This document shows, piece by piece, positions 34,935 through 63,294 of a stretch of 64,000 bases of DNA. A program made the position numbers and the translations under genes. This DNA comes from Desulfoferula mesophila. GTDB lineage: Bacteria; Desulfobacterota; Desulfarculia; Desulfarculales; Desulfarculaceae. Every line of letters starts with the position of its first letter. Position 1 is the first letter of the stretch. Location of the stretch: positions 1,937,501 through 2,001,500 of the forward strand of contig NZ_AP028679.1 in NCBI RefSeq assembly GCF_037076455.1, given 5' to 3'. The notes beneath the pieces are model-generated. The model was given only the letters and a program-made list of their open reading frames with translations. It had not been told where the DNA came from and searched no databases.

Positions 34935-34963
34935 AAGGGCCCAGCCTAAACGGCTGGGCCCTT
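34935..34963 (+). terminator. Terminator after the HD-GYP gene
   Basis: Perfect 12-bp stem AAGGGCCCAGCC/GGCTGGGCCCTT with a 5-base loop. It lies 89 bases past the stop, immediately before the tRNA fragment; the U-tract is poor on both strands. Confidence 0.75.
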
Positions 34964-34972: not shown

Positions 34973-35018
34973 TGGCGGGGACGACGAGACTCGAACTCGC
35001 GACCTCCGGCGTGACAGG
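34973..35018 (-). tRNA. 3' fragment of a tRNA-Asp(GUC) gene
   Basis: Read on the minus strand, the segment gives CTGTCAC (anticodon loop, GUC), the 3' anticodon strand GCCGG, variable loop, T-arm with GTTCGAGTC and an acceptor ending CCCCGCCA. Upstream of the anticodon loop the sequence does not pair (GTGTC instead of CCGGC) and no D-arm or 5' acceptor follows. The tRNA therefore breaks exactly at the anticodon loop. This is not a functional tRNA; it looks like the attachment-site copy left by a tyrosine integrase. Confidence 0.7.
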
Positions 35019-35467
35019 ACACCTGGAAGTACGCACCCCTCCTGTTTTCAGGTACTTAACTGCATAGCAATGCATCAAAATGCAGCATTCTGCATAAAAA
35101 TGCATGGCGCGCTACGTCAAATCCTACGTCACGCGATCTCATCTGTTGCTGTAGCAAGTGCACTGTTAAAAAATTGTGTGCCGAGCTAAGTGCAGGGTAC
35201 CTGGCATTATCTTAAATTATGTCTTGCCAGTAAATGTGCATCTTACTTCTACTACACAAAACATCGATCACCTAGAGGATCGTTCCATGGCTGGGGGCTT
35301 CCAAGACCCATGACCCAGATCGCAATTGCTGACCTGCTTCCAAAACAATTATTTGGTTCATAGCACAACTTGAATAGGTTACAGGAAAAACCAGTAAATT
35401 TAATGCCTCTCTGCCAGTGCTCAGACCTACTGGGTTTTCGTTTAATAAAAAGTTCATAAATTAACTG
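35019..35467. other. AT-rich gene-free stretch next to the tRNA fragment
   Basis: About 450 bases with no supported gene, markedly richer in A+T than the flanks. It contains repeated TGCAT words at 35060-35105 and a direct repeat CTACGTCA spaced 13 bases apart near 35113. These could be remnants of integrase arm or recombination-directionality sites, but no integrase gene is visible. Confidence 0.35.
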
Positions 35468-35509
35468 TTGACAGTGGGAGATTTGTTTTTTATATGATGT
35501 CAGACATCA
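35468..35509 (+). promoter_or_regulatory. Promoter with overlapping GntR-type operator
   Basis: TTGACA (35468-35473), a 17-bp spacer and TATATG (35491-35496) form a good sigma-70 promoter. The 15-bp palindrome TGATGTCAGACATCA (35495-35509) overlaps the -10 and start point. It matches the TnGTnnnACnA-type core bound by FadR-subfamily GntR regulators, whose gene starts 20 bases downstream, so autoregulation is likely. Confidence 0.7.
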
Positions 35510-35529
35510 GATAACTACGGAGGCTGTTA

Positions 35530-36321
35530 ATGCCCGACACAGGTGCCCCCTTTAGTCCGATAGGGGATAAAAGCCTTTATCATCAAGTGGTTGATCGTAT
35601 CCGCATCGCAATTTTTAGGGGCGACCTCAAGCCCGGCGATCAATTGCCGTCTGAGCCAGAATTGGCTCGCCAACTGGCCGTTAGTCGTTCCGCCGTGCGT
35701 GAAGCCATCCGGATATTGGAAAGCGCCGGGCTCGTTGCGGTACGACGGGGGCATGGGGGAGGCACCTTTGTACAGGAGCGGGACGTAGCCTCTTTGGTGC
35801 CGGTTTTCGCCGATATTCTCAGGCTCTCCCTGGTAGAGGTCAGCGAGCTTACTCGGACCAGGGTGCTACTGGAGTCAGTGGTGATTCAGGAGGCGGGAGC
35901 TCTCCTGAAACCGGCCGATGTGGCCCTTCTGCACAAGAATGTCGATGAGGCGGAGCAATTCTATAAACAGGGTGAAGTGGAACTGCGCGTCGCTGCTAAC
36001 CTGGATTTTCACATGAAATTGGCCCGCGTAGCCGCCAGCCCCGTCTTGGAACTGAACGTAGGCGCGGTGCTCAAACTCCTGTCCTATTATTTGGAAGCGA
36101 TCCCCCCTACAGCCGAGATGGTGGAAGGCACTCTGGCCGGACACCGGCAACTCATAGAACTGATGGCTACCGGCCAGGTGCTTGAGGCCGTGGCTTTAAA
36201 CCGACAACACATCGAGACTGTGAGCCGCAAATTGATCCTGTGCGCTGAAGAGGATGCGGACAAGGGACTTCCCGCACGGCATTTGTTCGATGACGGAGGA
36301 ATTGATGAAAAAGCGGTTTAG
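35530..36321 (+). CDS. GntR-family regulator, FadR/FCD type
   Basis: 263 residues. N-terminal winged helix with GDQLPSEPELARQLAVSRSAVREAIRILESAG (shown by LPSEPELA and SRSAVREA), wing GHGGGTFV, then an all-helical FCD ligand domain whose metal-site pattern (ESVV, H near residue 160, GHRQLIE) is recognisable. Such regulators respond to carboxylates or acyl-CoAs. It heads the operon with ligase, TRAP transporter and beta-oxidation genes. Its 3' end overlaps the ligase start by 17 bases. Confidence 0.9.
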   Translation: MPDTGAPFSPIGDKSLYHQVVDRIRIAIFRGDLKPGDQLPSEPELARQLAVSRSAVREAIRILESAGLVAVRRGHGGGTFVQERDVASLVPVFADILRLSLVEVSELTRTRVLLESVVIQEAGALLKPADVALLHKNVDEAEQFYKQGEVELRVAANLDFHMKLARVAASPVLELNVGAVLKLLSYYLEAIPPTAEMVEGTLAGHRQLIELMATGQVLEAVALNRQHIETVSRKLILCAEEDADKGLPARHLFDDGGIDEKAV

Positions 36322-37672
36322 TTACTACATGCCCGAAATGGACGGGCTCAGCATACCAGAAATCGAGGCTATGCTGGCCCCACGGCTGCGAGAGCAGCTC
36401 AAATACTGCTACGACTCATCACGCTATTACAAAGAAAAGTTTAAACAAGCGGGGGCTGAACTCGGGGACATACAAACCTTTGAAGACCTGCGCAAGTTGC
36501 CCGTATTCATGACCAAGGAAGACGAGAGGGCCTGTCAGGAGGAGTCGCGCCAAAAACTGGGGCATACCTTCGGAACCCACCTCTGCGCCCCGGTGGATGA
36601 ACTTTACCTCACCGGCACCACCTCTGGAACCACAGGAGTGCCGACCTTTACCTATACCTTCACCAAAAACGACCTGGATTTTTTGGCACCTCGTTTAGCG
36701 CATCGGTTGGCCCTATGCGGGGTAGGCAAGGGTGACAGAGGATTGTTCTGCTTCACCCTGGGCATCTACGCCACTACCATGACTCTGTGGGGATTGCGCC
36801 TATTGGGGGCCTTGCCCATCGATATAGACGCACGGGCGGGAACCGACACTTTCCTAAAGTTCGCCGATTTGACCCGCCCCACTCATCTGGCCTGCACCCC
36901 GTCCTTGGCACTTTATCTCATAGAAAAATGCCCCAAGATGCTGGGATATCCCGTCTCCGAACTTAAGTTAAAAGGGCTGTTGACCACTGGTGAGCCCGGC
37001 ATCGCCAACCCCGCGATAAAAAAGACTCTGGAAGAGTCATACCAATGCCCCAGTTTTGACTATTGGTCCCCGGCTGGCCACGCCCCAGGCATATCCTGTT
37101 TGTCCGATGAATATCAGGGCCTACACGCCATCGCCCCGGAAGTATGTACCAGCTATTTTGACCTGATCGACCCAATAAGCGGTGAATCGGTCCCCTTGGA
37201 AGATGGGGCCGTGGGCCAGATGGTGCACACCTCTTTGCACCGTGAAGCTTGCCCCCTGGTTAAGTACGCGTATGGGGACGTGGTCAAGATATTTTTGGGA
37301 GAGTGCCCCTCTTGCGGATTCAAAGGCATCCGCGCCAAGTTGGTCGGCCGCGCTGACGACATGCTCATCGTAAAAGGGGTAAACGTGTACCCCGCCGCAG
37401 TGCGCACAGAAGTAATGAAGTTCAAGCCTCAAGTAACCGGTCAAATGCGTATAGTGCTGGACTCTCCGCCTCCCAGGGTGGAGCCCCCCTTGAAATTGAA
37501 AGTCGAATACCAAGGGAATTTGGATCAGCGGGAGCTTGACGCCCTGGCCGAAAAAATAGCCCAGGCAGTGCACGACACCCTGCGTATGCGTCCTAAGGTC
37601 ATCATGGTTCCGGAGGGAGATTTGCCGAGGCACACCCGGAAAACACCTGTGTTTGAGAAAGCCTATGAATGA
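36305..37672 (+). CDS. PaaK-type phenylacetate-CoA ligase family protein
   Basis: 455 residues. The family P-loop is YLTGTTSGTTGVPTFTYTF, followed by SFDYWSPAGHAP and GRADDMLIVKGVNVYPAAV, which mark the PaaK-like ANL branch that activates aromatic acids. ATG at 36305 is preceded by GGAGGA; upstream in-frame Mets sit inside the regulator gene. A close paralogue lies at 51241-52602 (shared TSGTTG.PTFTYTF and GVNIYPAA regions). Probably the activating enzyme for the acid taken up by the TRAP system encoded next. Confidence 0.9.
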   Translation: MKKRFSYYMPEMDGLSIPEIEAMLAPRLREQLKYCYDSSRYYKEKFKQAGAELGDIQTFEDLRKLPVFMTKEDERACQEESRQKLGHTFGTHLCAPVDELYLTGTTSGTTGVPTFTYTFTKNDLDFLAPRLAHRLALCGVGKGDRGLFCFTLGIYATTMTLWGLRLLGALPIDIDARAGTDTFLKFADLTRPTHLACTPSLALYLIEKCPKMLGYPVSELKLKGLLTTGEPGIANPAIKKTLEESYQCPSFDYWSPAGHAPGISCLSDEYQGLHAIAPEVCTSYFDLIDPISGESVPLEDGAVGQMVHTSLHREACPLVKYAYGDVVKIFLGECPSCGFKGIRAKLVGRADDMLIVKGVNVYPAAVRTEVMKFKPQVTGQMRIVLDSPPPRVEPPLKLKVEYQGNLDQRELDALAEKIAQAVHDTLRMRPKVIMVPEGDLPRHTRKTPVFEKAYE

Positions 37673-37732
37673 TGCGCTGTCCTAATTAGCAAGGAGTCCC
37701 GATTGACATTCACTCGATCTAGGAGGGGTCAA

Positions 37733-38884
37733 ATGAAGGGAACGAAGGGAATAAGGAAACTATTTTTGTTGGTTATCGCGGCGGCCATAATGTTGCTGCC
37801 GGTCGCGGCGGGCGCTGATGACCTGCCCAAGATGATCAGCGCCACCACCTATACCGTGGGCTCCACCGGCTACGCCATATCCATGGGCCTGTGCAAGGCC
37901 ATTGAGGAAAAGGGCGGAATCAAAGTCAAGGTGGTACCCGCCGGCACCGACGTATCCAAGCTGATGCCGGTCATGTCCAAGGAGGCAGCGTTCAGCATCC
38001 TCACTGGGGCGGGCCAGTTTATGGCCAGCCGCGGGTTGCAGCTTTTCGCTGCCCCCAACATGGGCCCCCAAAAGCTGCGCCTCGTATGGGCGTGCAACAT
38101 CGGAGCCGTGGCCGGCATGATGACCAGGGCCGATGCAGGCATCAAGACCCTGGCCGATCTCAAGGGCAAACGCGTGGCCTTTATACCGGGTTCTCCCGCT
38201 TGCACTTTCCTGCACGGTGGCTATCTGGCTTTTGGCGGATTGGACTGGAAGGACGTAAAGAAGGTCAAGGTTTCTTCCTGGAAGGCGGCCTGGAAGTCGG
38301 TACTGGAAGGCTCCAGCGACACGGCGCATTGCTTGGTCACTTCCAGCGCGGCCATGGAACTGGCGGCCTCCCCGCACGGTATCCACTGGCTTCCCGCTCC
38401 ACCGCAAGACAAGGCGGGCTGGAAGCGCCTGAATTCCTGGTGCCCCTACCTGCGCCCCTATGAGGCCAAGAAAGGCGCCGGCATCACTCCTGAGAAACCG
38501 GCCCACATCGCTTCCTACTATTATGGTTTTGTGACCTATCCCCATATGGACCCAAAGTTAGCCGAGGTAATCACAGGCTCCATCTACAAAGGCTATGACA
38601 TCTATGCCGACATGCACGCGGCCCTTAAAAAATGGACTCGCGCGGCCGCTTTGGATAATGGGGCTTTTGTGGTGCCCTACCACCGAGGATCGGTAGAGGC
38701 CTTCAAGTCTGCCGGCGCTTGGAGCGCCGAGCACGAAAAGATTCAGCAGATGCTGCTGGAACAGGAGAAGGCCAGGTTGGCTGGGTACGTCGCGGCTCAG
38801 AAATCCGCCAAGGGAAAAGGCATTTCCCAAAAGGAGTGGCCTAAATTCTGGGAGGAATATGCCCGCGAGCACAACCTGCTCTAA
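37733..38884 (+). CDS. TAXI-family TRAP transporter solute receptor
   Basis: 383 residues. A signal peptide (hydrophobic LFLLVIAAAIMLLPVAAGA) precedes a TAXI domain with SATTYTVGSTGYAISMGLCKAIEEKGGIKV (core GSTGYAISMG) and LADLKGKRVAFIPGSP. It binds the solute in the periplasm for the fused permease 106 bases downstream. ATG at 37733 has AGGAGGGG upstream; the longer in-frame TTG start would place residues before the signal peptide. Confidence 0.9.
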   Translation: MKGTKGIRKLFLLVIAAAIMLLPVAAGADDLPKMISATTYTVGSTGYAISMGLCKAIEEKGGIKVKVVPAGTDVSKLMPVMSKEAAFSILTGAGQFMASRGLQLFAAPNMGPQKLRLVWACNIGAVAGMMTRADAGIKTLADLKGKRVAFIPGSPACTFLHGGYLAFGGLDWKDVKKVKVSSWKAAWKSVLEGSSDTAHCLVTSSAAMELAASPHGIHWLPAPPQDKAGWKRLNSWCPYLRPYEAKKGAGITPEKPAHIASYYYGFVTYPHMDPKLAEVITGSIYKGYDIYADMHAALKKWTRAAALDNGAFVVPYHRGSVEAFKSAGAWSAEHEKIQQMLLEQEKARLAGYVAAQKSAKGKGISQKEWPKFWEEYAREHNLL

Positions 38885-38990
38885 GACATATCACCGCGTA
38901 TAACAGCCGCGGCGGCGTCTAGTGGACCCGCCGCGGCCCCTCGAGCCTCCCCGCCTGTATCTTTGGCATTGCTACAAAAGGTATGGCCAT

Positions 38991-40958
38991 ATGACAAAAC
39001 CCGCCTCGGCAGATAAGCCTGTTGAGAACGCTGCGGCCCGGCGCCGGGAGTTAAAGGGGTGGCTGGGAATATACTTTCTAGCCACAACCACAGTTGGGGT
39101 ATTCTCGGCCCTGTATCAACTATTTCACCTTGACTTCCTCGGTACCTTGATGGGCAGCGCCTATTACTACCTGCTTTTAGCCTGTTTCCTACCACCGGTG
39201 TTTTTGATCTATCCCATCAAGGGCCGAGCCATAAAAAACAGCCCGCCATCTTACGATGTGTTTTTTGCCGTGCTGGCCTTGGCCAGCAACTTGTATTTTT
39301 GCTGGCATGCCGAGGAGATCGGGGCCATGGGATGGGAAATCTACCCGCCTATGACGCCGCTCATCTGCGGCGTGGTGCTGGTGGTGTTGGTCTTGGAGGC
39401 CGCCCGCCGGGTAGGTGGCCCGGTGTTCGCCGGCCTGTGTCTGTTCTTCGCTACCTTTGGGTTATATTCATCGCATCTTCCCAGCCTGTTGCAAGGCATG
39501 TCCTACGGGCCCAGCCGCTTGGCCGCTTACTTCTCCATGGGACCCTCGGGCATCATCGGCCTGCCCATGCGGGTCGTCGGCAACATACTAATAGGTTACA
39601 TGGTTTTCGCGGTGGCCCTGCAGGCGACCGGGGGTGGCAAGTTTTTTCTGGACCTGGCCTCGGCCCTGTTCGGTTTTGTGCGCGGCGGGGCGGCCAAAGT
39701 CTCCATCTTTTCTAGCGCCTTGTTCGGCAGCATCAGCGGCAGCTCCATTTCCAACGTACTTACTACCGGGGCCATCACCATCCCAGCCATGAAAAAAGCG
39801 GGCTATCCCGCCCATTATGCGGCAGCCATCGAGGCCTGCGCTTCCACCGGCGGAGTACTCATGCCCCCGGTGATGGGCGCCACCGCTTTTGTCATGGCCG
39901 AATTTCTAGGCCTGCCTTACGTGGAAATATGTATCGCGGCAGTTGTTCCCTCCGCCCTGTACTACTCGGGCCTATTTTTGCAAGCGGATGCCTATGCCGC
40001 CCGCACAGGCCTAAAGGGGATGCCCAGAGACCAATTACCGTCCCTGGGAGTAACCGTCAAGAACGGTTGGATCTACATTTTCTCGCTTTTGCTCCTGGTG
40101 TGGATGCTGTTGTACATGCGCTGGGAGGTGTGGGCGCCGTTCATTTCCGCCGCTCTGCTATTGCTGGTGGCGACTACCCGCCAGCACGAAGCGTTAAGGC
40201 TTAAACAGTGGGCCGGTTTTGTGCGTGGAGTGGGAACCGTGCTGGCCGAGTTGGCCGCACTGTTGGCCGCCATCGGTATGATCATTGGGGCCCTCTCCAT
40301 TACCGGCGTGGCGCACTCGTTTTCCAGCGAGATCATCAAACTGGCTGGCGGACAGGTCTGGTTACTTTTAGCCCTTGGCGCGATCACCAGCTTTGTGCTG
40401 GGCATGGGCATGACCATCACCGCTTGCTACGTGTTCCTGGCCATGGTCTTGGCTCCGGCCTTGATACGCTCGGATCTCAACCCTCTGGCGGTGCATCTGT
40501 TCATCATGTATTGGGGTATGGCTTCCTACATCACCCCACCGGTAGCATTGGCCGCCTTTGCCGGCGCGGGCATCGCCGGTTCAGATCCGATGAAGACCGG
40601 TTTCAAGTCAATGCAACTGGGCGTGGTCAAGTATTTCGTGCCTTTCTTCTTTGTATTGAACCCAGGTCTCATCTTTCAGGGACCGCCTTGGGAGGTAGCC
40701 CAGGCGATTTCAGGTTGCTTTTTGGGGGTACTGGTGATCAGCGCCTCCATGGAAGGCTGGGTCCTAGGCCTGGGACGACCACCGCTTTGGCTCAGGCCGG
40801 TTTTGTTCATAGCTGGTTTAATGCTGGCCGCCCCCGAACTCATGACCGACATCGTCGGGCTAGTGCTTTTGGTGGCCTGCTTGCTGTTCATGTGGACCAA
40901 TAGGCGGCGGCCGGGCCGGTTGCATAAAAAGGAGCAAAGTAATGTCCTGGCGCAGTGA
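38991..40958 (+). CDS. TRAP transporter fused permease (4TM/12TM)
   Basis: 655 residues, with about 16-18 hydrophobic helices. The fused DctQ-DctM arrangement is typical of TAXI-TRAP systems. DctM motifs visible are FGSISGSSISNVLTTGAITIPAMKKAGYP, here SGSSISNV, and ASTGGVLMPPVMGATAFVMAEFLG. Sodium-driven uptake is usual for the family. Start ATG at 38991; 106 bases separate it from the receptor gene. The stop overlaps the DUF169 gene. Confidence 0.9.
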   Translation: MTKPASADKPVENAAARRRELKGWLGIYFLATTTVGVFSALYQLFHLDFLGTLMGSAYYYLLLACFLPPVFLIYPIKGRAIKNSPPSYDVFFAVLALASNLYFCWHAEEIGAMGWEIYPPMTPLICGVVLVVLVLEAARRVGGPVFAGLCLFFATFGLYSSHLPSLLQGMSYGPSRLAAYFSMGPSGIIGLPMRVVGNILIGYMVFAVALQATGGGKFFLDLASALFGFVRGGAAKVSIFSSALFGSISGSSISNVLTTGAITIPAMKKAGYPAHYAAAIEACASTGGVLMPPVMGATAFVMAEFLGLPYVEICIAAVVPSALYYSGLFLQADAYAARTGLKGMPRDQLPSLGVTVKNGWIYIFSLLLLVWMLLYMRWEVWAPFISAALLLLVATTRQHEALRLKQWAGFVRGVGTVLAELAALLAAIGMIIGALSITGVAHSFSSEIIKLAGGQVWLLLALGAITSFVLGMGMTITACYVFLAMVLAPALIRSDLNPLAVHLFIMYWGMASYITPPVALAAFAGAGIAGSDPMKTGFKSMQLGVVKYFVPFFFVLNPGLIFQGPPWEVAQAISGCFLGVLVISASMEGWVLGLGRPPLWLRPVLFIAGLMLAAPELMTDIVGLVLLVACLLFMWTNRRRPGRLHKKEQSNVLAQ

Positions 40959-41757
40959 TTGTGAACAACTGGACCGTGCTCTGAAACAGAGGCTTTTCAT
41001 TTCCAACGCCCCTGTGGCTGTGCGTCTGGTGAGCCCCGAAGAAGAGGCCCAGGCCCCTGCCTGGTTGCAGGAAATAAGGAAACCGGGCCAGGGGTTGCCT
41101 GAAAAGCTTTTAGTCTGTCAGGCCATGGCCATTGTGCGTTTGTATGGTTGGCAAGTTTTGGTGACACCGGAATCGGTTGAATGCCCCACCGGGCTGTTGA
41201 CCATGGGCTGGGTGGATATGAGCCCGGAATATTTGCGCGGAGAGATTCCGGTGTCGCCTTTCAACCAAAGCGACGCGGCCAGGGGACGGCGCATGGAGGC
41301 GGTAACCTGCATGCCTGCGGGCAGCGTGGCTTCCATGGCCGCGGCTCCTCTGGGTGATTGTCCCTTTGAGCCCCAGGTGGTGGTTATTTACTGCACCCCC
41401 GGGCAAGCCATGCGCCTGGTGCAATCCACCCTCTTCGAGGAAGGCGGTAGTTTGGAATCGTCTTCCGCCGGGGCCCAGGGGTGTTCGCAATATTTGAGCC
41501 GGGTGATACTTAGCGACAAACCGCGCTACATCTTGCCCGGCAACGGTGACCGCATCTTCGGGCATGTGGAAGACCACCAGATGGCCTTTTCGTTGCCTTT
41601 AAGTTATGCCGGGCGTTTGGCTGAAGGCATAGAAAAGAGTCATGCGGGCGGCCAAGCTTACCCCGTGCCGGCTTATTTGCGCGCCGATTTCAAGGTGCCC
41701 AAGGCCTATGCCAAGGCCAGTGAGCACTTGCGGCAATATACCAAGGACAAAGCATGA
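40942..41757 (+). CDS. DUF169 family protein
   Basis: 271 residues. Recognised as DUF169 by APVAVRLVSPEEE near the N-terminus, VCQAMAIVR, ECPTGLLTMG, CMPAG and the C-terminal SAGAQGCSQYL. Conserved cysteines (about 54, 77, 118, 130, 177) suggest a metal or redox role, but function is unknown. It overlaps the TRAP permease by 17 bases and has its own AAGGAG, so it is translationally linked to the transporter and may act on the imported compound or its CoA ester. Confidence 0.8.
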   Translation: MSWRSDCEQLDRALKQRLFISNAPVAVRLVSPEEEAQAPAWLQEIRKPGQGLPEKLLVCQAMAIVRLYGWQVLVTPESVECPTGLLTMGWVDMSPEYLRGEIPVSPFNQSDAARGRRMEAVTCMPAGSVASMAAAPLGDCPFEPQVVVIYCTPGQAMRLVQSTLFEEGGSLESSSAGAQGCSQYLSRVILSDKPRYILPGNGDRIFGHVEDHQMAFSLPLSYAGRLAEGIEKSHAGGQAYPVPAYLRADFKVPKAYAKASEHLRQYTKDKA

Positions 41758-41809
41758 TAGGCGCTCGTGTCCCATCAGCGTTGCCCTTGTCCATGCATAG
41801 GAGCGGAAA

Positions 41810-42694
41810 ATGCACATCAGCAAGATATTCATCCTGGGGGGCGGCACCATGGGGCGCGGCATCGCCCAGGTTTGCGCCCAAAGCGGTTTGTCGGTGGTGC
41901 TCTGCGACGCGGCCGAAAAGGCTCTGACGGAGGCCGAAAAACAGATCGCCTGGTCTGTGGGCAAGTTCATTCAAAAAGGTAAGGTCGCGGAATCTCTAGA
42001 CCAGGTAATGTCGCGCATCGGCTTCAGCCCTAGCGTCGAGCAAGCGGCCGAAGCCGATATGATCATCGAGGTGGTGTTCGAGGATATCGAGGTAAAGCGC
42101 GAGGTCCTGGAGCAAATAAGCCGGGTGGCCTCACCCGACGCCTTGGTAGCCAGCAACACCAGCGCGATACCAATCACCGACCTGGCCGCCTTTGTGGAGC
42201 ACCCGGAGAGGGTTCTGGGGCTGCACTTTTTCAACCCGGTTCCCCTAATGGCCGCGGTGGAAGTGATCAAGGGCAAATGTACCTCCCCAGAGGTATTGGA
42301 TGCGGGCCGCGAGTTTGTGCTGCATATCGGCAAGGATCCCATAATGGTCATGCGCGACTGCCCGGGCTTTGTTATCAACCGCATAAACCTACCCTCCAGC
42401 ATCGAGGCCATGCGCGTGGTGGAAGAAGGCGTGGCCTCGGTGACCGATATCGACAAAGGCGTGAAGCTGGCTTTGGGTAGACGCATGGGAATCTTCGAGA
42501 CCGGAGACATCGTGGGCCTTGACGTGACCCTGGGCGCCTTGTCGTCCATCTACCAGGAGACCAAAGAGCCCCGTTGGCATCCGCCTATGATACTGCGCCG
42601 CAAGGTGAAAGCCGGACAGTTGGGCCGCAAAACGGGCACCGGTTGGTACCGCTACAGCGAGGACGGCAAGATGCTGGGCCCGGCGGAAGATTGA
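41810..42694 (+). CDS. 3-Hydroxyacyl-CoA dehydrogenase (HBDH type)
   Basis: 294 residues, the length of stand-alone 3-hydroxybutyryl-CoA dehydrogenase. NAD loop FILGGGTMGRGIAQVCAQ, SNTSAIPITDLA, catalytic His in GLHFFNPVPLM and RDCPGFVINRINLP opening the C-terminal dimerisation domain. It oxidises (S)-3-hydroxyacyl-CoA with NAD+ in the cytoplasm. Ribosome-binding site GGAGCGG upstream; 10 bases separate it from the enoyl-CoA hydratase gene. Confidence 0.93.
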   Translation: MHISKIFILGGGTMGRGIAQVCAQSGLSVVLCDAAEKALTEAEKQIAWSVGKFIQKGKVAESLDQVMSRIGFSPSVEQAAEADMIIEVVFEDIEVKREVLEQISRVASPDALVASNTSAIPITDLAAFVEHPERVLGLHFFNPVPLMAAVEVIKGKCTSPEVLDAGREFVLHIGKDPIMVMRDCPGFVINRINLPSSIEAMRVVEEGVASVTDIDKGVKLALGRRMGIFETGDIVGLDVTLGALSSIYQETKEPRWHPPMILRRKVKAGQLGRKTGTGWYRYSEDGKMLGPAED

Positions 42695-42704
42695 GGTTGA
42701 GACA

Positions 42705-43481
42705 ATGGCCCTAGCCCAGTACGAAATCACGGATCAAGTAGCCATCGTCACCATCAATAACCCGCCCCTGAACGCCCTGGACGTTCCCACCAAGCTGGCC
42801 ATTGAGGAAGCCTTTCTGGAGTTGGACCGCATCAGGGATCAAATGCGCGCGGTGGTCCTCACCGGCGGTGGCGAAAAGGCCTTTGTGGCCGGGGCGGACA
42901 TAAAGGCCTTCGTAGACCTGGAGCCCGAGAGCGCCAAGCGCCGGTTGATGCGCAGCCACAAGGTCTACGAAGTGGTGGAGAGCTTTCACTGGCCGGTAAT
43001 CGCGGCCATCCACGGTTTCTGCTTTGGCGGAGGCCTGGAGCTGGCCCTGTGCTGCGATGTGCGCTACGCCTCTCGCGATGCTCAGTTCGGTTTTCCCGAG
43101 GTGAAGCTCTCCATTTTTCCGGGTAATGGGGGAACCGTCCGGTCCCAGTACTTCTTGGGACTGGGGCGTTTCAAGGAAATGGTCTACTCCGGGGAAACTA
43201 TCAGCTCCGAACAGGCCTTGCAGTACGGTCTCGTGGAAAAGGTGACCGAGAGCGGTCAGGTCATGGACGCCGCCCTTGAGTTGGCCCACAAGATTGCCAG
43301 GCGAGGTCCTTTGGGAGTGGCTGCCGCTAAAAAGGCCATAAATCGCAACCGTGACCTGCCTCTACAACAAGGGCTGGAAGTGGAATCCGACCTGTGGGCC
43401 GGACTCAGCTTGAGCCACGATATGAAGGAGGGCGCCAAGGCTTTCATCGAAAAAAGGAAGCCGAAGTATCTGGGCAAGTAG
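42705..43481 (+). CDS. Enoyl-CoA hydratase/isomerase family protein
   Basis: 258 residues, crotonase fold. Oxyanion segments TGGGEKAFVAGADIKAF and AIHGFCFGGGLELALCCDVR are intact, and FGFPEVKLSIFPGNGGTVRS keeps the Glu of PEV. C-terminal EGAKAFIEKRKPKY is typical. Provides the hydration step between the acyl-CoA dehydrogenase product and the hydroxyacyl-CoA dehydrogenase encoded upstream in the same operon. Confidence 0.93.
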   Translation: MALAQYEITDQVAIVTINNPPLNALDVPTKLAIEEAFLELDRIRDQMRAVVLTGGGEKAFVAGADIKAFVDLEPESAKRRLMRSHKVYEVVESFHWPVIAAIHGFCFGGGLELALCCDVRYASRDAQFGFPEVKLSIFPGNGGTVRSQYFLGLGRFKEMVYSGETISSEQALQYGLVEKVTESGQVMDAALELAHKIARRGPLGVAAAKKAINRNRDLPLQQGLEVESDLWAGLSLSHDMKEGAKAFIEKRKPKYLGK

Positions 43482-43561
43482 CTTTTGCCCAAGACGCTTA
43501 AAAGAGGTTACCCATCGCTTGAGACCAGTATAGTGCCTCGTATTGCTTTTAGGAGTTAACT

Positions 43562-44716
43562 ATGCCCAAAGTTGCCGTAATCGGGGTGGGGCAGTCGGCT
43601 TTTGTGCGCGGCTACCCCGGCTCCATCCGTGAACTGGCCTTCGAGGCCTATGCCGAGGCCATGGCCGACGCCGGGGCCCAAAACAGCGACATCGGGGCCA
43701 CGGTGATCTGCTCCAGCCCGGAGTATGACAAACAGCGTTCCCCGGCGGGAGTCATCGCCGAGTACTGCGGCCTCAACCCCCAGCCCACCTTCTACGTGGA
43801 GACCCTGTGCTCCAGTTCCTCCACCGGACTCAAGCTGGCTTATTCCCTGGTGGCCAGCGGCCTGCACGACAGCGTGATGGTGCTGGGCTTTCAAAAGATG
43901 AGCGAGATAACCAGCGCCGAGAGCCAGGAGCGCATGGGCCGCGGGGCGGATATCCAGTTCGAGAGCCCCTTCGGCACCATGATGCCCGCCTATTACGCCA
44001 TGCACGCCAAGGCCTATCTGGACCACTTCGGGGCCAGCGAGGAAGACCTGGCCCGCATCCGGGTGAAGGCGGCCACCTACGGGCAGATCAACGCCAAGGC
44101 GGTGTACCGCAAGGGGGTGGAGCTGGAGCAGTGCCTCAGCGCCGATCCGGTTTCCAAGCCGCTCAAGGTATTTGACTGCTGCGCCAACGCCGACGGCAGC
44201 TCCTGCGTGATCGTGGCCAGCGAAGAGCGGGCCAAGGCCATGGGCATCACCAAGCCGGTGTGGATCCTGGGCATCGGCGCGGCCTCCATGCCCATCAACA
44301 TGTCCTGCCGGGACAAGTTCCACGGCCTGGCGGTGGCCGAAGAAGCGGCCAAGCAGGCCTATGCCATGGCCGGTCTGGGCCCCAAGGACATCAACGTGGC
44401 CGAGGTGCACGACTGCTTCACCATCGCCGAGATGATGGCCTATGAGAACCTGGGCTTTGCCGAGCCGGGCCAGGGGCCGGAGCTTATCCGGGCCAAGGAG
44501 ACCTACAAGGAAGGCTCCATCCCGGTGAACGTGGACGGCGGCCTGCTGAGCAAGGGTCACCCCATCGGAGCCACGGGCGGCAGCCAGGTGCGCACCATCG
44601 TCTTGCAGCTTCGCGACCAGGCGGGCGACATGCAGGTCAAGGACCCGCAGTTCGGTCTGGTGCACAACATCGGCGGCGTGGGCCTGTACGGCAACGTCAC
44701 CATCTTCGGGAGGTGA
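43562..44716 (+). CDS. Thiolase family protein (SCP2-type)
   Basis: 384 residues. Nucleophile Cys83 in FYVETLCSSSSTGLKLAYSL and catalytic His in NVDGGLLSKGHPIGATGGSQ are present; the second thiolase Cys of CGGG is replaced in HNIGGVGLYG, as in SCP2-like thiolases. Expected to cleave a 3-oxoacyl-CoA with CoA. AGGAG precedes the ATG. It is followed by a DUF35 partner gene after 3 bases, the same pairing as at 15813-17386, and provides an internal reference for the Cys/UGA comparison there. Confidence 0.92.
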   Translation: MPKVAVIGVGQSAFVRGYPGSIRELAFEAYAEAMADAGAQNSDIGATVICSSPEYDKQRSPAGVIAEYCGLNPQPTFYVETLCSSSSTGLKLAYSLVASGLHDSVMVLGFQKMSEITSAESQERMGRGADIQFESPFGTMMPAYYAMHAKAYLDHFGASEEDLARIRVKAATYGQINAKAVYRKGVELEQCLSADPVSKPLKVFDCCANADGSSCVIVASEERAKAMGITKPVWILGIGAASMPINMSCRDKFHGLAVAEEAAKQAYAMAGLGPKDINVAEVHDCFTIAEMMAYENLGFAEPGQGPELIRAKETYKEGSIPVNVDGGLLSKGHPIGATGGSQVRTIVLQLRDQAGDMQVKDPQFGLVHNIGGVGLYGNVTIFGR

Positions 44717-44719
44717 GGC

Positions 44720-45148
44720 ATGCCTAAACCGGAAATGGACACCCGTTTCAGCAAATTCGGCACGGTGAGCTTCACCGCGGTCACCAAGGTCAACGATTTC
44801 ATCGGCTACCTGGAAGAGGGCAAGGTGGCGGGCACCCAGTGCACCAAGTGCGGCCAGAAGTTTTTCCCGCCCCGCTCCGACTGCTTCGCCTGCCCCGGTG
44901 AGCCTGTGGAGTGGTTCGAGGTGCAGGGCACGGGCAAGCTGATGACCTTCAGCGAGCTGATGTACGCGCCCATCGGCTTTGGCGAGGACCTGCCTTATGC
45001 CATCGCGGTGTTGGACTACGGCGACTTCAAGGTCTTCGGCCGCATCGGCGAGGTGCCCTTTGAAGAGGTGAAGATCGGCATGGAGATGGTGACCAAGGTC
45101 AACCAACTGCCCAACGGCAACCTCAACTACGTGTTTGAAAAAGCCTAG
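44720..45148 (+). CDS. DUF35 OB-fold/Zn-ribbon protein, thiolase partner
   Basis: 142 residues. Zinc ribbon CTKCGQKFFPPRSDCFAC (about residues 40-57) followed by an OB-fold with GTGKLMTFSELMYAP and DLPYAIAVLDYGDFKVFGRIG. Forms the usual accessory subunit of the SCP2-type thiolase encoded immediately upstream. Last gene of the GntR-headed operon before the insertion sequences begin. Confidence 0.88.
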   Translation: MPKPEMDTRFSKFGTVSFTAVTKVNDFIGYLEEGKVAGTQCTKCGQKFFPPRSDCFACPGEPVEWFEVQGTGKLMTFSELMYAPIGFGEDLPYAIAVLDYGDFKVFGRIGEVPFEEVKIGMEMVTKVNQLPNGNLNYVFEKA

Positions 45149-45323: not shown

Positions 45324-46133
45324 TTAGTGCCAGTCAACAGTAGAAACTTCAGGTGAATTTATAGCGAGGTATTCGGCTGGTGTCAGGTTGCCGAGGGACT
45401 CATGAGGGCGTTCCTCGTTGTACTCCTTGAGCCAGCGATCCGTGATTTCCCGCACCTCGCTTAGACGGGAAAATATGTAAAGGTCCAGCACCTCTTCCCG
45501 ATAGGTCCGGTTGAAGCGTTCAATGTATGAATTCTGGGTGGGCTTGCCGGGCTGAGTGAAACCCAAATCGATACTATGCTCCTCGGCCCATTGGGCCATA
45601 GCTACACTGACCAGCTCCGGGCCGTTGTCCAGCCTCAGCCTGGACGGGTAGCCCCGCCAGGCAGCGATACGCTCCAGCACTCGGATTATCCTTTGGGCGG
45701 GGAGATTGACGTCCACCTCTATGGCCAGGGCCTCTCGATTGAAATCATCCACCACATTAAAGGTCCTGAATCGCTGGCCGCCATACAGGGCATCGCTCAT
45801 GAAGTCCACCGACCAGCAGATATTGGCCAGATCCGGCACTGCAAGCGGCTGGGGATCACGAGTAGGCAGGCGCTTCTTACCCTTCCTGCGAAGGTTTAGC
45901 TTCAGGGCGCAGTACACTCGGTACACCCGCTTGTGATTCCAGCCATGTCCATCCCGCCGAATTACTTGAAACAGTTTGGCAAAGCCGTATCTGGGATATT
46001 TGTCTGCCAGCGAAGTCAGCGCCTCGATGATCGGACCATCGTCGCGGGGCTTGGGTCGGTAGGCATAAACCGACCGGCTCAGCCTCAGGGCGCGGCAGGC
46101 CCGGCGAATGCTCAGACCGTGCTCTTTGCACAT
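45324..46133 (-). CDS. IS3-family transposase orfB (IS407 group)
   Basis: 269 residues. Integrase DDE core: Asp in WSVDFMSDAL, Asp in RLDNGPELVS, Glu in YIERFNRTYREEVL, with the C-terminal RPHESLGNLTPAEYL. All three catalytic residues are present, so it looks active. Normally made as an OrfAB fusion by -1 frameshifting from the orfA gene upstream; an A-rich run at the orfA end is suitable. Confidence 0.9.
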   Translation of the reverse strand: MCKEHGLSIRRACRALRLSRSVYAYRPKPRDDGPIIEALTSLADKYPRYGFAKLFQVIRRDGHGWNHKRVYRVYCALKLNLRRKGKKRLPTRDPQPLAVPDLANICWSVDFMSDALYGGQRFRTFNVVDDFNREALAIEVDVNLPAQRIIRVLERIAAWRGYPSRLRLDNGPELVSVAMAQWAEEHSIDLGFTQPGKPTQNSYIERFNRTYREEVLDLYIFSRLSEVREITDRWLKEYNEERPHESLGNLTPAEYLAINSPEVSTVDWH

Positions 46134-46165
46134 GAACTTAGCCAGATCGCGCCGACCCGCTGGCC

Positions 46166-46432
46166 TTATATTTTTCTTTCGATGACGTCCTTCAGAGCCC
46201 GATTCTCAAGGCTCAAGTCGGCGTACATCTGCTTTAGACGCCTGTTTTCTTCTTCAAGCTCCTTGAGCCGGACGATGTCCGAGGCCTCCATGCCCCCGTA
46301 CTTGGACTTCCATTTGTAGTAGGTGGCGCTGCTGACACCGTATTCCCGGCAGACCTCCTTGGCGGTCCTGCCCCCTTCCACCTCTTTCAGAATTTTGACG
46401 ATCTGAGTTTCGCTGAATCTGGTCCTGCGCAT
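46166..46432 (-). CDS. IS3-family transposase orfA (HTH protein)
   Basis: 88 residues. A helix-turn-helix (TAKEVCREYGVSSATYYKWK) is followed by a leucine-zipper-like coiled coil (RLKELEEENRRLKQMYADLS). The orfA protein of IS3 elements binds the terminal repeats. Located upstream of orfB on the same strand. Confidence 0.9.
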   Translation of the reverse strand: MRRTRFSETQIVKILKEVEGGRTAKEVCREYGVSSATYYKWKSKYGGMEASDIVRLKELEEENRRLKQMYADLSLENRALKDVIERKI

Positions 46433-46538
46433 CGTGAAGAGTCCTCCTTGCAGACCTCAGTCTGTGACCTGCTTCCCGAATTCTGGTCCATATCGGATGA
46501 GAAAATCGTCATAATTCTCATTTGACCAGGAGGACTGG

Positions 46539-46805
46539 ATGAAGCGCAGGAGGTACACCGAGCCCCAGATCGTTTTTGCCCTGCAGCAGGCTGACAGCGG
46601 CACCCCGGTGGCGGAGATCGTGCGCAAGATGGGGGTGAGCGAGGCCACCTTTTACCGCTGGAAGAAAAAATTCGCGGGCATGGGCGTGGCGGAGATCAGG
46701 CGCCTGAAGCAGCTTGAGGAAGAAAACCGTAAGCTCAAGCAGCTGGTGGCTGACTTGAGCCTGGACAAGGCCATGCTGCAGGACGTCATAAAAAGAAAAC
46801 TATGA
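46539..46805 (+). CDS. IS3-family transposase orfA (HTH protein)
   Basis: 88 residues with HTH (PVAEIVRKMGVSEATFYRWK) and coiled coil (LKQLEEENRKLKQLVADLSL). The stop TGA overlaps the orfB ATG (ATGA), and an A-rich run precedes it, as needed for the programmed frameshift that yields OrfAB. Confidence 0.92.
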   Translation: MKRRRYTEPQIVFALQQADSGTPVAEIVRKMGVSEATFYRWKKKFAGMGVAEIRRLKQLEEENRKLKQLVADLSLDKAMLQDVIKRKL

Positions 46806-47758
46806 AGCCTGTCCGCAAGCGTGCTCTGGCCGGCTATTTGGAGAAGGTATTCAAGGTCAGTGAGCGGCGGGCCTGCCAGGTGCTCAAGTTTGCCCGCTCC
46901 AGCCATCGCTACCAGAGTATTGCGGACAGGCAGGACGAATTGCGCATGCGGCTGAGGGACCTGGCCGCGGTCCGGGTCAGCTATGGCTACCGGCGCCTGC
47001 ATGTGCTCCTGAGGCGGGAGGGCTGGCTGGTCAACGCCAAGCGGGTTTATCGCCTTTATACCGAGGAGGGGCTGACCATGCGCCGCAAGCGCCCCCGGCG
47101 CCGGGTGAGCGCGACCCGCCGGGTGGTCAGCCAGCCAAAGCCCAAGAGGAGCAACGAGAGCTGGTCTATGGACTTTGTGTCCGATCAGCTTTATTCTGGG
47201 CATCAGCTCCGGGTGCTGACGATAGTGGACAACTTTAGTCGTGAGAGCCTTGCTTTGAAGGCTGGTCAGAGCCTACGGGGCGATGATGTAGTGGCAGTGC
47301 TCAACCAGCTGGTCGCTGAACGTGGAGCCCCCAAATCCATCAAAGTGGACAACGGGAGCGAATTCACCTCTAAAGTCCTTGATCAGTGGGCGTACTGGAA
47401 CAAGGTGGAGCTTGATTTCAGCCGCCCAGGCAAGCCCACGGACAACCCATTTATCGAGTCATTCAACGGACGTCTTCGGGAGGAGTGCTTAAACGAAAAC
47501 TGGTTTGTGTCGGTGGTGGACGCCCAGGACAAGCTGGACACCTGGCGGCTGGATTACAACCAACATCGGCCACACAGCTCCCTGGGTAACATGACCCCGG
47601 AGGCCTATGCCAAGCAGGTGGGACCTGCCCCCTGCGTGGCCTCCCCCAGGGCTCCATCTCCAAAGAAGCAAACCTGGGAATCTCTCATCTCACCTGGACC
47701 CGAAACGGGTAGCACCTCATCTGCCAGAAGTCTCTACCTCAAACTGGCCCTATTTTAA
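46802..47758 (+). CDS. IS3-family transposase orfB (IS407 group)
   Basis: 318 residues. DDE catalytic residues lie in WSMDFVSDQL, KVDNGSEFTS and FIESFNGRLREECL; C-terminal RPHSSLGNMTPEAYAKQ. Intact and probably active. About 40 extra C-terminal residues after the conserved end read through the right inverted repeat. Confidence 0.92.
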   Translation: MKPVRKRALAGYLEKVFKVSERRACQVLKFARSSHRYQSIADRQDELRMRLRDLAAVRVSYGYRRLHVLLRREGWLVNAKRVYRLYTEEGLTMRRKRPRRRVSATRRVVSQPKPKRSNESWSMDFVSDQLYSGHQLRVLTIVDNFSRESLALKAGQSLRGDDVVAVLNQLVAERGAPKSIKVDNGSEFTSKVLDQWAYWNKVELDFSRPGKPTDNPFIESFNGRLREECLNENWFVSVVDAQDKLDTWRLDYNQHRPHSSLGNMTPEAYAKQVGPAPCVASPRAPSPKKQTWESLISPGPETGSTSSARSLYLKLALF

Positions 47759-50299: not shown

Positions 50300-50980
50300 A
50301 TGCCTAAAAAAAGCAGCCCCCTTAGGGAAAAAATCTATAATAAATTGATCGAGGACATCGTCACCGACAGGCTCAATCCCGGTGAACGGTTGTCTGAGGC
50401 CAGCCTGGCCAAACGCTTCAAAGTAAGCCGCACTCCCATCAGAGAGGCCCTGCTCCAGTTGGAGAAGTTGGGCTACGTTGTGCACCAAAAGAATGTGGGC
50501 ACCGTGGTAAAGAAGATCTCTCCCGAAGGGGTACGCGAAATATTTGAGGTGGTGGCCGCCTTGGAGGGCATGGCGGTGGAGCTTTTTGGTAAGCTCCCTC
50601 CCTCGCCGGAGGATATGGCCCAACTGGCCCGCTTGCATGAGTCCCTAAAGCGATACACAGAGCACCAGGACTTTGCCGACTACTACGAGGGCAATCGCCA
50701 GTTTCACGATTTCTTTGCCCTCAAATCGGGCAATAAGACCCTTGTTAAGCTAACCCGCTCGCAGCGTGATCGCATATACCGCATAGTGGCCCGAGGCAGT
50801 ACCCTGCCCATTCACATTCACCAGTACGCGGCAGGCCACGAAGCCATCATCAAGGCCTTGGAAAAGGGTAAGGCGGAGTTGGCAGGCTCCATCATGAAAA
50901 ACCACGTGCTGGAAGCTGCCTATCTCATTTCGGGAAACCTAGAGCCATTGCCTTGGTCACCATTTCCCAGCCATGACTGA
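50300..50980 (+). CDS. GntR-family regulator, FCD type
   Basis: 226 residues. Winged helix with LNPGERLSEASLAKRFKVSRTPIREALLQLEKLG, here SRTPIREAL, then an FCD domain (FHDFFALKSGNKTL, GHEAIIKALEKGKAELA). ATG at 50300 with GGAG upstream; a longer in-frame GTG/ATG extension to 50240 lacks support. Probably governs the flanking hydratase and ligase genes through the shared GTATAC sites. Distinct from the regulator at 35530. Confidence 0.9.
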   Translation: MPKKSSPLREKIYNKLIEDIVTDRLNPGERLSEASLAKRFKVSRTPIREALLQLEKLGYVVHQKNVGTVVKKISPEGVREIFEVVAALEGMAVELFGKLPPSPEDMAQLARLHESLKRYTEHQDFADYYEGNRQFHDFFALKSGNKTLVKLTRSQRDRIYRIVARGSTLPIHIHQYAAGHEAIIKALEKGKAELAGSIMKNHVLEAAYLISGNLEPLPWSPFPSHD

Positions 50981-51148
50981 TATCAGCAATGGGGTATGCT
51001 GGCGGGCTTAGGGGCAGTCTCCCTTTCCCTAGACCGTTAGCCAATCACTATTAAACGAGAATTTTGACCGGATGGTTCACGGGTAGTTTCAAACGACCAC
51101 CCTGCTTAAAAACTGGTTGACTTTCACACATGCAGTTAATTATACATA

Positions 51149-51160
51149 ATTGTATACTAT
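51149..51160. promoter_or_regulatory. Candidate GntR operator ATTGTATACTAT
   Basis: Lies in an AT-rich block of overlapping near-palindromes (TTATACATAATTGTATAC) 81 bases before the PaaK-type ligase start, and matches 49339-49350 at 11 of 12 positions. The gene-free interval 50981-51240 shows nothing else. Confidence 0.5.
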
Positions 51161-51240
51161 AGTACACACCACCCGTGATCCGCACTTCGCTGAGCAGCCC
51201 GCATATTATCGTCACCCGCTAGAATGAAAGGGCAATCCCT

Positions 51241-52602
51241 TTGCAACGCTACTTTGCCAATCCAGCCCTTGACGCGCTATCGCCGGAAGAAATCTACGTC
51301 CTGCAGGAGCAACGCCTGGTTCCCCAGCTTACCTATTGCCGCGACCATTCTGAGTTCTACCGCGAAAAGTTCCGCGCCTGCGGCGTCGAACCGGGCGATA
51401 TCAAAACCTTGGATGACCTGCGGGCCCTGCCGGTTTTCATGAACAAGGACCAAGAGCGCCTGAACGCTCAGGAGTCACTGGAACGCGATGGCCATCCCTT
51501 TGGCACGCATCTGTGCGCCGACCCCAAAGACATCTACCTCACGGGCACCACCTCAGGCACCACCGGCATGCCCACCTTCACCTACACCTTCACTAAGCAG
51601 GACGTGGAGACCATCGCCCCAGCCCTGGGCTGGCGCTTCGCCTATAACGGCCTGGCCTACGGCGACCGGGTGTTGTTCATCTTTGCCCTGGGCATCTACG
51701 CCACCAGCATGTCCCTGTGGGGACTGCGCAGCATAAAAGGAGTGCCCATCGACGTGGACGCCCGGGCCGGTTCCGAGCTTATGCTGCGTTTTGCCGATAT
51801 CACCCGGCCCAAGTACATGGCCACCACGGTGTCTCTATCGGAGTACCTCATTGGCAAGGCCCCGGTCGTGCTGGGCAAGGAGGTGGGTGAGCTGGGTTTC
51901 CGGGGTCTTTTCCTTACCGGCGAGGTGGGGGTGAGCATCCCCGAGGTACGCCAGCGCATTGAGTCGGCCTATGGATGCCGCATATACGACTACTGGGCCC
52001 CGGCCGGCCATGCCATCGCCATCACCTGCGATTCGCCCAGCTACAGTGGCATGCACTGGGTCGCTCCGGACCTGTGCACCAGCTTCGATGACCTGGTGGA
52101 CCCGGAAACCAAACAGCCAGTGCCGGTGGTGAATGGCGCGGTGGGAGAAATGGTGATTACCTCCCTGAGGCGTCAAGCCTCCCCACTGCTCAAGTACGCC
52201 ACCGGCGACATCGTGCAGGTGTGGACCGAACCCTGTCCCCACTGCGGTTTCCCCGGCAAGCGAGCTCAGCTCATAGGCAGGGCCGACGATATGTTGGTGG
52301 TCAAGGGAGTGAATATTTATCCCGCAGCCATCAAACAAGTGGTGCAGGGTTTCACTCCGCAGGTTACTGGCGAGATGCGCATTGTACTGGAGACCCGGCC
52401 CCCCCGTGTGGTGCCGCCACTCAAGCTAAAGCTGGAACGCTCGGGCCAGGTGGTCGACACGGACTTGGAGGGTCTGGCACGGCGTATCGTGGGAGCCATG
52501 CACGATCAGCTTAAGATAAGGCCAGAAATCCAATGGGTAGATTCGGGGAGTCTGGAAAAGTCCACCCGCAAGACGCCTTTGTTTGAAAAGAACTATGAAT
52601 AG
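51241..52602 (+). CDS. PaaK-type phenylacetate-CoA ligase family protein (second copy)
   Basis: 453 residues, close paralogue of the ligase at 36305-37672. P-loop YLTGTTSGTTGMPTFTYTF, DYWAPAGHAI, GRADDMLVVKGVNIYPAAI. It forms an aryl- or acyl-CoA from a carboxylic acid using ATP. Start is TTG at 51241 (an in-frame stop lies at 51220 and no ATG intervenes), with GAAAGG nine bases before. Followed 18 bases later by the metallo-hydrolase gene. The two ligases probably serve related acids brought in by different transporters. Confidence 0.9.
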   Translation: MQRYFANPALDALSPEEIYVLQEQRLVPQLTYCRDHSEFYREKFRACGVEPGDIKTLDDLRALPVFMNKDQERLNAQESLERDGHPFGTHLCADPKDIYLTGTTSGTTGMPTFTYTFTKQDVETIAPALGWRFAYNGLAYGDRVLFIFALGIYATSMSLWGLRSIKGVPIDVDARAGSELMLRFADITRPKYMATTVSLSEYLIGKAPVVLGKEVGELGFRGLFLTGEVGVSIPEVRQRIESAYGCRIYDYWAPAGHAIAITCDSPSYSGMHWVAPDLCTSFDDLVDPETKQPVPVVNGAVGEMVITSLRRQASPLLKYATGDIVQVWTEPCPHCGFPGKRAQLIGRADDMLVVKGVNIYPAAIKQVVQGFTPQVTGEMRIVLETRPPRVVPPLKLKLERSGQVVDTDLEGLARRIVGAMHDQLKIRPEIQWVDSGSLEKSTRKTPLFEKNYE

Positions 52603-52620
52603 CAGGACGAGCGGTTAGAT

Positions 52621-53364
52621 ATGTCATTTGAAATCGTTCCCTTGACCTTGTGCTACTACCAAGCGGAAAAGGGCTACATGACCTATATGACCGGCTACGG
52701 GCAAAACATCATCCGCCCCTTTGTGGTGTGGTTCATCAAGGGGACGTCCAAAAACATAATAGTGGACAGCGGAATAGAGTCCCAGGACTACCGCGACTAC
52801 CACCCCGGATTCAAGGACCTGGAAATCACCCACCTGCAGAGTTTTGACGAGGCTTTAACCTCAGTGGGCATCACCCCGGAGCAGGTGGACATAGTGGTGC
52901 AGACCCACTTGCATTTCGACCATTGCTACAACCTGAGGCGCTGCATCAACGCTGAAGTGCTGGTGCAAAAGGCAGAACTCGACTTCGCCATGGACCCGGT
53001 ACCCTACGCGGGCATATACCGTCCGGAGCTTTGGGAAGGGGCCAACCTGAAACTCATCGAGGGCGAGTATGAAATAGAGCCCGGCCTAACCTTGTTGCCG
53101 GTACCCGGACACGCGGCCGGCGGGCAGGCGGTCTTGGTGGATACCAACAGCGGGACGGTGGCCATCGCAGGCATGTGCACCTGCCAAGAGAATTTTTATC
53201 CTGAGGCCGGGCACCCCATGGTCGGCGACGACCACACCTTGTTGCCAGGCATACTCTTGAACGCCCGCGATGCCTACGAAAGCATGGTACGGCTCAGAAG
53301 CCGTGCCGATAAAATACTGGCTTTGCATGATCCTGACATCCTGCAACAAAAAATTATCTCCTGA
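52621..53364 (+). CDS. MBL-fold metallo-hydrolase (AHL lactonase-like family)
   Basis: 247 residues. Zinc motif VQTHLHFDHCYN (HxHxDH), PGHAAGGQAVL and a late LALHDPDIL place it in the beta-lactamase-fold family that includes N-acyl-homoserine lactonases. Possible roles here are lactone or thioester hydrolysis of a ring-cleavage intermediate. It sits between the ligase and transporter genes of the second catabolic unit. Substrate cannot be assigned. Confidence 0.87.
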   Translation: MSFEIVPLTLCYYQAEKGYMTYMTGYGQNIIRPFVVWFIKGTSKNIIVDSGIESQDYRDYHPGFKDLEITHLQSFDEALTSVGITPEQVDIVVQTHLHFDHCYNLRRCINAEVLVQKAELDFAMDPVPYAGIYRPELWEGANLKLIEGEYEIEPGLTLLPVPGHAAGGQAVLVDTNSGTVAIAGMCTCQENFYPEAGHPMVGDDHTLLPGILLNARDAYESMVRLRSRADKILALHDPDILQQKIIS

Positions 53365-53429
53365 GCAAGTAAAAGATGTGAGCACGATCAAGCCAGAAAA
53401 TCCTGTTCCTATTTCCGCGGGAGGGAAAG

Positions 53430-54692: not shown

Positions 54693-54711
54693 ATTCCCAA
54701 CGACGACAAAT

Positions 54712-54738
54712 CGCCCCCAGGGATTTTCCCTGGGGGCG
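54712..54738 (+). terminator. Intra-operon hairpin after the receptor gene (attenuator-like)
   Basis: Perfect 12-bp inverted repeat CGCCCCCAGGGA/TCCCTGGGGGCG with a 3-base loop, 20 bases after the receptor stop and 54 before livH. No U-tract. Comparable in position to the hairpin at 25992-26020 in the other ABC operon. Confidence 0.65.
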
Positions 54739-54792
54739 TGCAACCTGCCCGCGAATATTAAGCTTCTGTAATTCGGAAGATAAAACAGACGC

Positions 54793-55665: not shown

Positions 55666-55684
55666 CGGAATAAAGTCATTGATT

Positions 55685-58414: not shown

Positions 58415-58714
58415 ATGACCGATGAGAAGAGTCGGAGGCAGGTAAGCCGTCGGCGGTACTCGGGCGAGTTCAAGACAGAAGCCTATGGCCTTGCCGAGCA
58501 GGTGGGGGTGTCCGGTGCGGCGAAGCAGCTTGGCCTGCATGAATCTCAGCTTTATGCCTGGGGCAAGAAAGCCCGGTATGAGGCGAGCCGTAGCGAGACC
58601 GAAAAGGCACTGGCCATCGAGAATGCCAGGCTCAAGCGCCAACTGGCCAGGCAGGAAGAGGAGTTGGCCCTGTTAAAAAAGGCGGCCGCGTACTTCGCGA
58701 AAGGCCTGAAGTGA
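58415..58714 (+). CDS. IS3-family transposase orfA
   Basis: 99 residues. RRRYSGEFKTEAYGLAEQVGV opens a transposase-8-type HTH (AAKQLGLHESQLYAWGKK), followed by a coiled coil ending in LLKKAAAYFAKGLK, the classical IS3 orfA terminus. GTGA overlap with orfB. Confidence 0.9.
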   Translation: MTDEKSRRQVSRRRYSGEFKTEAYGLAEQVGVSGAAKQLGLHESQLYAWGKKARYEASRSETEKALAIENARLKRQLARQEEELALLKKAAAYFAKGLK

Positions 58715-63279: not shown

Positions 63280-63294
63280 AACAGCTCCTCCTGA

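Follow-up and report, generated by a model that had tools for sequence, protein, structure and literature searches.

The Islander paper, in the part available, describes the signature of islands that sit in tRNA genes (tDNAs) as an intact tDNA plus a 3' fragment, with a length of 2-200 kb, and counts 2083 of 3919 tDNA islands as anticodon-centred (PMC4383910). A second described system is PYG1 in the tRNA-Gln of Pyrococcus yayanosii, where, according to the available part of the source, partial and complete tRNA copies bracket the island and direct repeats of 44 bp are present (PMC9897764). The locus reported here shares this bracketing, whereas PYG1, in the same part of that source, is archaeal, 21.4 kb long and placed in another tRNA (PMC9897764). 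The third system is an element in the relative G010, which is presumably Desulfocarbo indianensis SCBM, given a 100% match in the record LBMP01000007.1. Searches of the literature on islands of this family by title listing returned no named tRNA-Asp island of Desulfarculaceae. The present locus is a new, well-resolved case of the already described anticodon-loop tRNA islands.

The window is the whole stretch of 64,000 nucleotides that was analysed (C1:1937501-2001500); it belongs to a genome of a single contig (C1, 4,479,191 bp), and positions without this prefix are those of the window. The initial annotation had read here a tRNA-Asp 3' fragment, from the anticodon loop to CCA and without a 5' half, next to an AT-rich gap with short repeats. 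It had proposed an integration scar at one end of a catabolic genomic island, with an intact tRNA-Asp(GUC), an integrase and a matching att repeat to be sought elsewhere. Both the fragment and the gap were confirmed, and matched ends, an integrase remnant and an att repeat of 46 bp now support the proposal. The features at this end are as follows:

34935..34963, minus strand: terminator behind the original tRNA-Asp gene, on the chromosomal side of the scar, with a 12-pair stem and a T-rich tail
34973..35018, minus strand: attR-type scar, a 3' part of tRNA-Asp(GTC) that extends from anticodon loop to CCA, 100% identical over 46 bp to the intact tRNA-Asp
35019..35140, minus strand: attachment-site arm (P arm), conserved with other islands, 91% to the G010 island end and 90% to G005
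35060..35105: TGCA-containing short repeats in the arm, three 14-nt copies at 35061-35104 with spacings of 10 and 20
35113..35131, minus strand: paired arm motif GACGTA-N-GACGTA (TACGTC-N-TACGTC on the plus strand), probable integrase arm-binding site

On the minus strand the scar reads CCTGTCACGCCGG...CCA (window 34973-35018). Direct comparison showed exactly 46 of 46 bases in common with the intact tRNA-Asp(GTC) and a mismatch at both sides. The homology starts at C31/C32, the start of the anticodon loop, as in the anticodon-loop class of att sites. A genome-wide search with 34940-35140 returned the same 46-base match at C1:2069723-2069768 (E 4e-17). No tRNA is called by ARAGORN within the window, so the piece is not a gene, and a search of the window for a decayed second fragment found none. 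Over 106 bp, the stretch 34916-35019 and the outermost tRNA-Asp fragment of the relative G007 share 83% identity; the terminator that the two have in common supports 34935-35018 as the original chromosomal 3' end. The scar forms the outer, chromosome-side end, with the island to its right from 35019. The adjoining gap (35019-35529) has a G+C content of 42.1%.

The intact tRNA-Asp(GTC) was found at C1:2069723-2069800 on the minus strand, 97.2 kb from the scar; past it come tRNA-Val, lon, clpX, clpP and a trigger-factor-like gene (names read from translations). A second intact tRNA-Asp was not seen in a genome search with the tRNA pair, so the rebuilt gene is probably the cell's only copy. The interval between the two tRNA-Asp copies (C1:1972519-2069722) measures 97,204 bp and has 56.9% G+C, against 64.0% in window positions 1-15400, 64.4% in 15400-34972 and 62.0% on the right side. 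Only two copies of TACGTC-N-TACGTC occur in 138 kb, one inside each end (35113 and 132138 in joined coordinates), the second lying at C1:2069638, 84 bp inside the far end; 50 shuffles preserving base composition gave a mean of 0.1. A similar motif is found at the ends of islands in the tRNA-Glu(CTC) and tRNA-Thr(CGT) of the same genome. The paired motif is probably an arm-binding site of the integrase. The locus resembles the Islander site A islands, as the available part of that source describes them, in having an intact tDNA and its cognate 3' fragment on one replicon, the same orientation (both on the minus strand, the fragment at the 3' side of the tDNA), a tyrosine integrase frame in the interval, here of the C-terminal 139 residues only, and a length between 2 and 200 kb (PMC4383910). 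It differs from them in its truncated integrase and in its cargo, which is acyl-CoA catabolism in a sulfate-reducer family.

The integrase at the far end is a C-terminal remnant of a tyrosine recombinase (Pfam PF00589, 2.1e-7) that adjoins the intact tRNA, its C-terminus towards the tRNA 3' end. Its 139 residues are 95% identical to residues 254-392 of the complete integrase that lies beside tRNA-Asp in G010. The part matching residues 1-253 of 392 is missing, the break is at an IS21 element, and a genome-wide search for the N-terminal part found it absent. As read from the alignment, the remnant still has the HxxR, H and Y motifs and lacks the first catalytic arginine. In the IS21 element at the break, istB was recognised by Pfam PF01695 and istA by its position and a Mu-transpos_C_2 domain; other copies of the element, within the island and close to the tRNA-Glu(CTC) island, match it at 99.8% identity or more. 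Because the integrase is truncated, the island is probably immobile now, unless a related integrase acts in trans, and excision is not expected from its own incomplete integrase. Four integrases were compared with NCBIfam, and no model scored above the cut-off.

Taken together, the scar is almost certainly the 3' end of the chromosomal tRNA-Asp(GTC), displaced from its gene, and one end of a 97-kb tRNA-anchored integrative island with catabolic genes, which is probably stranded. An integrative element carrying its own tRNA 3' part would have recombined with the tRNA-Asp gene at the anticodon loop by means of a tyrosine recombinase, the crossover presumably falling within the loop. At the far end the incoming copy would have restored a complete tRNA-Asp, while the original 3' part and terminator would have been pushed aside to 34935-35018. 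The element in between carries several regulator-plus-catabolic operons and many insertion sequences, and the loss of integrase residues 1-253, including the first catalytic arginine, at IS21 would have left it stranded. The common orientation, the position of the 3' fragment downstream of the tRNA and the distance of 97 kb were counted for the island, as was the repetition of its layout in the tRNA-Glu(CTC) and tRNA-Thr(CGT) of the same genome. No conjugation gene family that would explain entry was found (families tested: PF02534 and PF03432; 66 of 97 genes scanned).

Sixty genomes (G000 included) were searched with the tRNA-Val/tRNA-Asp region, and 18 stretches of 15 relatives were fetched. 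Fragments of the tRNA-Asp 3' part broken at the same loop occur in 6 of the 15 (G004, G005, G007, G008, G010 and G015), with a shorter one in G006. The arm (35019-35140) is matched in 5 of the 60 genomes, its own included; the match in G010 adjoins a tRNA-Asp fragment. The G010 element has the same tRNA and the same ends: its tRNA-Asp fragment equals that of the present island over 45 of 45 bases, the left end adjoining this fragment is 88% identical over 139 bp, and the right end is 94% identical over 464 bp. In contrast, its integrase is complete, and the 53 kb adjoining its fragment contain no homologue, at E 1e-15, of any protein of the present island.

Close to their tRNA-Asp att, G005, G006 and G007 keep genes of the left part of the window (4.3-15.4 kb), with other DNA between, so that one chromosomal place is filled by different DNA in different genomes. 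None of the relatives read showed the conserved synteny across the junction that the initial annotation had set against an insertion. To the left of the scar, 19.4 kb (about 15.5-34.9 kb) have no counterpart in the regions read from relatives, and the exact empty site, or pre-insertion junction, is therefore seen in no relative. The HD-domain gene at 33274-34845 failed as a marker of the empty site; it has no close orthologue in the genus, where its best match is 48% identical over the C-terminal part only. In G005 (contig C28, 3209-3253 and 1937-1981) the intact tRNA-Asp gene and a displaced fragment have different T arms, so that integration apparently exchanges the 3' halves of tRNAs between strains.

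The cargo inside the window is as follows:

35490..35514: 12-nt inverted repeat ahead of the GntR gene, candidate operator, arms 92% complementary and 1 nt apart
35530..36321, plus strand: GntR/FCD regulator (Pfam GntR 4.6e-20, FCD 1e-16)
36290..45148, plus strand: first catabolic cluster (Pfam)
45324..47758: two IS3-like transposase gene pairs, HTH_Tnp_1 plus rve (Pfam)
50300..58103, plus strand: second GntR/FCD regulator, acyl-CoA ligase, metallo-hydrolase and branched-chain-type ABC transporter (Pfam)
58415..59577, plus strand: IS3-like transposase pair, apparently broken (Pfam HTH_Tnp_1, rve)
62122..63741, minus strand: acyl-CoA dehydrogenase and MaoC-type hydratase (Pfam)

The annotated GntR-controlled catabolic operon with insertion sequences was borne out by the GntR/FCD gene, the acyl-CoA and TRAP genes and the transposases at 45.3-47.8 and 58.4-59.6 kb; its proposed end at about 62 kb was not, as the island runs on for 68 kb past the window, to C1:2069722 in the gene list of the joined stretch. 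The first cluster holds an acyl-CoA ligase (AMP-binding_C_2), an NMT1-type binding protein, TRAP DctM, DUF169, a 3-hydroxyacyl-CoA dehydrogenase, an enoyl-CoA hydratase and a thiolase with an OB-fold partner. The inverted repeat that immediately precedes the first GntR/FCD gene may serve in autoregulation. An Rfam match to isrN at 46025-46167 (57.7 bits) overlaps an IS3-like transposase pair and was not counted as a separate RNA; the isrN family may itself be partly IS-derived.

The Pfam scan covered 66 of the 97 called island genes, transposases, short, boundary-spanning and some other genes being left out, and a family was assigned to 64 of the 66 proteins. Across the island the enzymes comprise acyl-CoA ligases, thiolases with OB-fold partners, acyl-CoA dehydrogenases, enoyl-CoA hydratases, 3-hydroxyacyl-CoA dehydrogenases, methylmalonyl-CoA mutase, a beta-keto acid cleavage enzyme, an HpcH-type lyase and a CoA-transferase, which points to a catabolic role. 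They are accompanied by TRAP and branched-chain-type ABC transporters, six GntR/FCD regulators and one IclR regulator, three IS21 copies and several IS3-like copies. A succinyl-CoA-ligase-like pair, an HpcH-type lyase, a CoA-transferase III and a fumarate-reductase-like flavoprotein at C1:2011990-2019048 are suggestive of dicarboxylic acid breakdown. The operon at 51.2-58.1 kb is 81-85% identical in DNA to copies in G005 and G007, and the stretches of 39-40 kb around those copies contain no tRNA gene; these copies away from a tRNA suggest that the cargo may have gathered stepwise and not as one piece.

It was also asked whether the scar could be a chance match or a decayed tRNA pseudogene, left by duplication or deletion without any element. 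There are other routes to a tRNA fragment, such as a CRISPR spacer according to the available part of one source (PMC9897764), but here 46 of 46 bases are kept, the arm motif stands at both ends, an integrase remnant lies at the intact copy, the same break recurs in relatives and the G010 element has matched ends. The exact 46-bp pair and these matched ends led to the rejection of a pseudogene as extremely improbable. A degenerate prophage or conjugative element, in place of a cargo-only island, would fit the occurrence of related integrases in IMG/VR contigs (21 loci) and is nevertheless considered quite improbable: the 66 of 97 island genes scanned with Pfam include no phage structural (capsid, terminase, tail) or conjugation family, and both a relaxase, PF03432, and a type IV coupling protein, PF02534, the only families that this search covered, are absent from the present genome and that of G010, with positive controls.

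The 97 kb could also be a former tandem or nested array, in which a first element was followed by later elements and IS-driven gene captures and the inner att copies were lost. Fragments in a row at the tRNA-Thr of the same genome (C1:224276 and 267113) and in the tRNA-Asp regions of G005 and G007 lend themselves to this history, as do the IS21 and IS3-like copies in the island and the occurrence of some cargo elsewhere in relatives. However, the genome yielded no third tRNA-Asp fragment and the 97 kb no additional arm motif, and an array is held to be possible but rather unlikely. The analysis gives a 97-kb catabolic island its exact borders on a chromosome from the Desulfocarbo family, and acyl-CoA degradation operons of this group are seen to reside on tRNA-anchored islands.

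Islands of the same type are present at other tRNA genes. The tRNA-Glu(CTC) at 3473.5 kb has a complete integrase relative, with a fragment at 3501.2 kb, and the tRNA-Thr(CGT) at 192.3 kb likewise has a complete integrase relative, its two fragments lying at 224.3 and 267.1 kb. By alignment the Asp, Glu(CTC) and Thr(CGT) islands have the same arm, and the fragment homology begins at the loop start in Asp and two to three bases ahead of it in Glu(CTC) and Thr(CGT). On sublocation preference, a 2002 paper by Williams, cited in the Islander paper, is said to be the classic one. An integrase also lies near tRNA-Glu(TTC), tRNA-Arg(ACG) and tRNA-SeC. Of the best 39 integrase relatives in public genomes, 30 have an opposite-strand tRNA no more than 300 bp from the match end (26 Glu, 3 Asp, 1 Val; 9 without). 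In a tree of 39 rows, several deep forks of which are open, the three Asp cases are spread over different groups; this scatter suggests repeated change of the tRNA target. The IMG/VR contigs gave little on targets, since a tRNA (tRNA-Glu) is present in only 1 of the 21 loci.

Genes for tRNA-Asp, tRNA-Glu, tRNA-Thr and tRNA-Val serve as docks for a single integrase lineage. Within the genome, the wobble base is the sole difference between the loops of tRNA-Asp(GTC) and tRNA-Glu(CTC/TTC): CCTNTCAC. It is tentatively proposed, as an idea that may well prove wrong, that this sulfate-reducer lineage reads the anticodon stem-loop as its core site, the stem serving as inverted arms and the 7-base loop as the exchange region. 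The lineage might then hop between Asp and Glu genes, because their loops differ only at the wobble base, and take a larger step to Thr and Val with the same arm sites; the tRNA set would form a ring of exchangeable docks that collects catabolic islands in Desulfarculaceae. Asp, Glu-CTC and Thr, which occur together in one genome and have the arm in common, form a small natural series in which integrase target change can be studied.

Several of these loci carry further details. The stretch C1:192300-267300 is a tandem island pair in tRNA-Thr(CGT), with one intact tRNA, two displaced 3' fragments and conserved arms. A near-identical twin of the tRNA-Thr integrase, with the arm motif, lies at C1:4245475-4246572, in a 3.3-kb locus in which no tRNA gene was found. 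Directly behind the displaced tRNA-Glu(CTC) fragment and beside an IS21, a second, different integrase remnant (C1:3501351-3501809) likely represents a second, tandem element. The integrase by tRNA-Arg(ACG), at C1:1647653-1648231, has its front fused to IS21 end sequence and is a second IS21-cut integrase.
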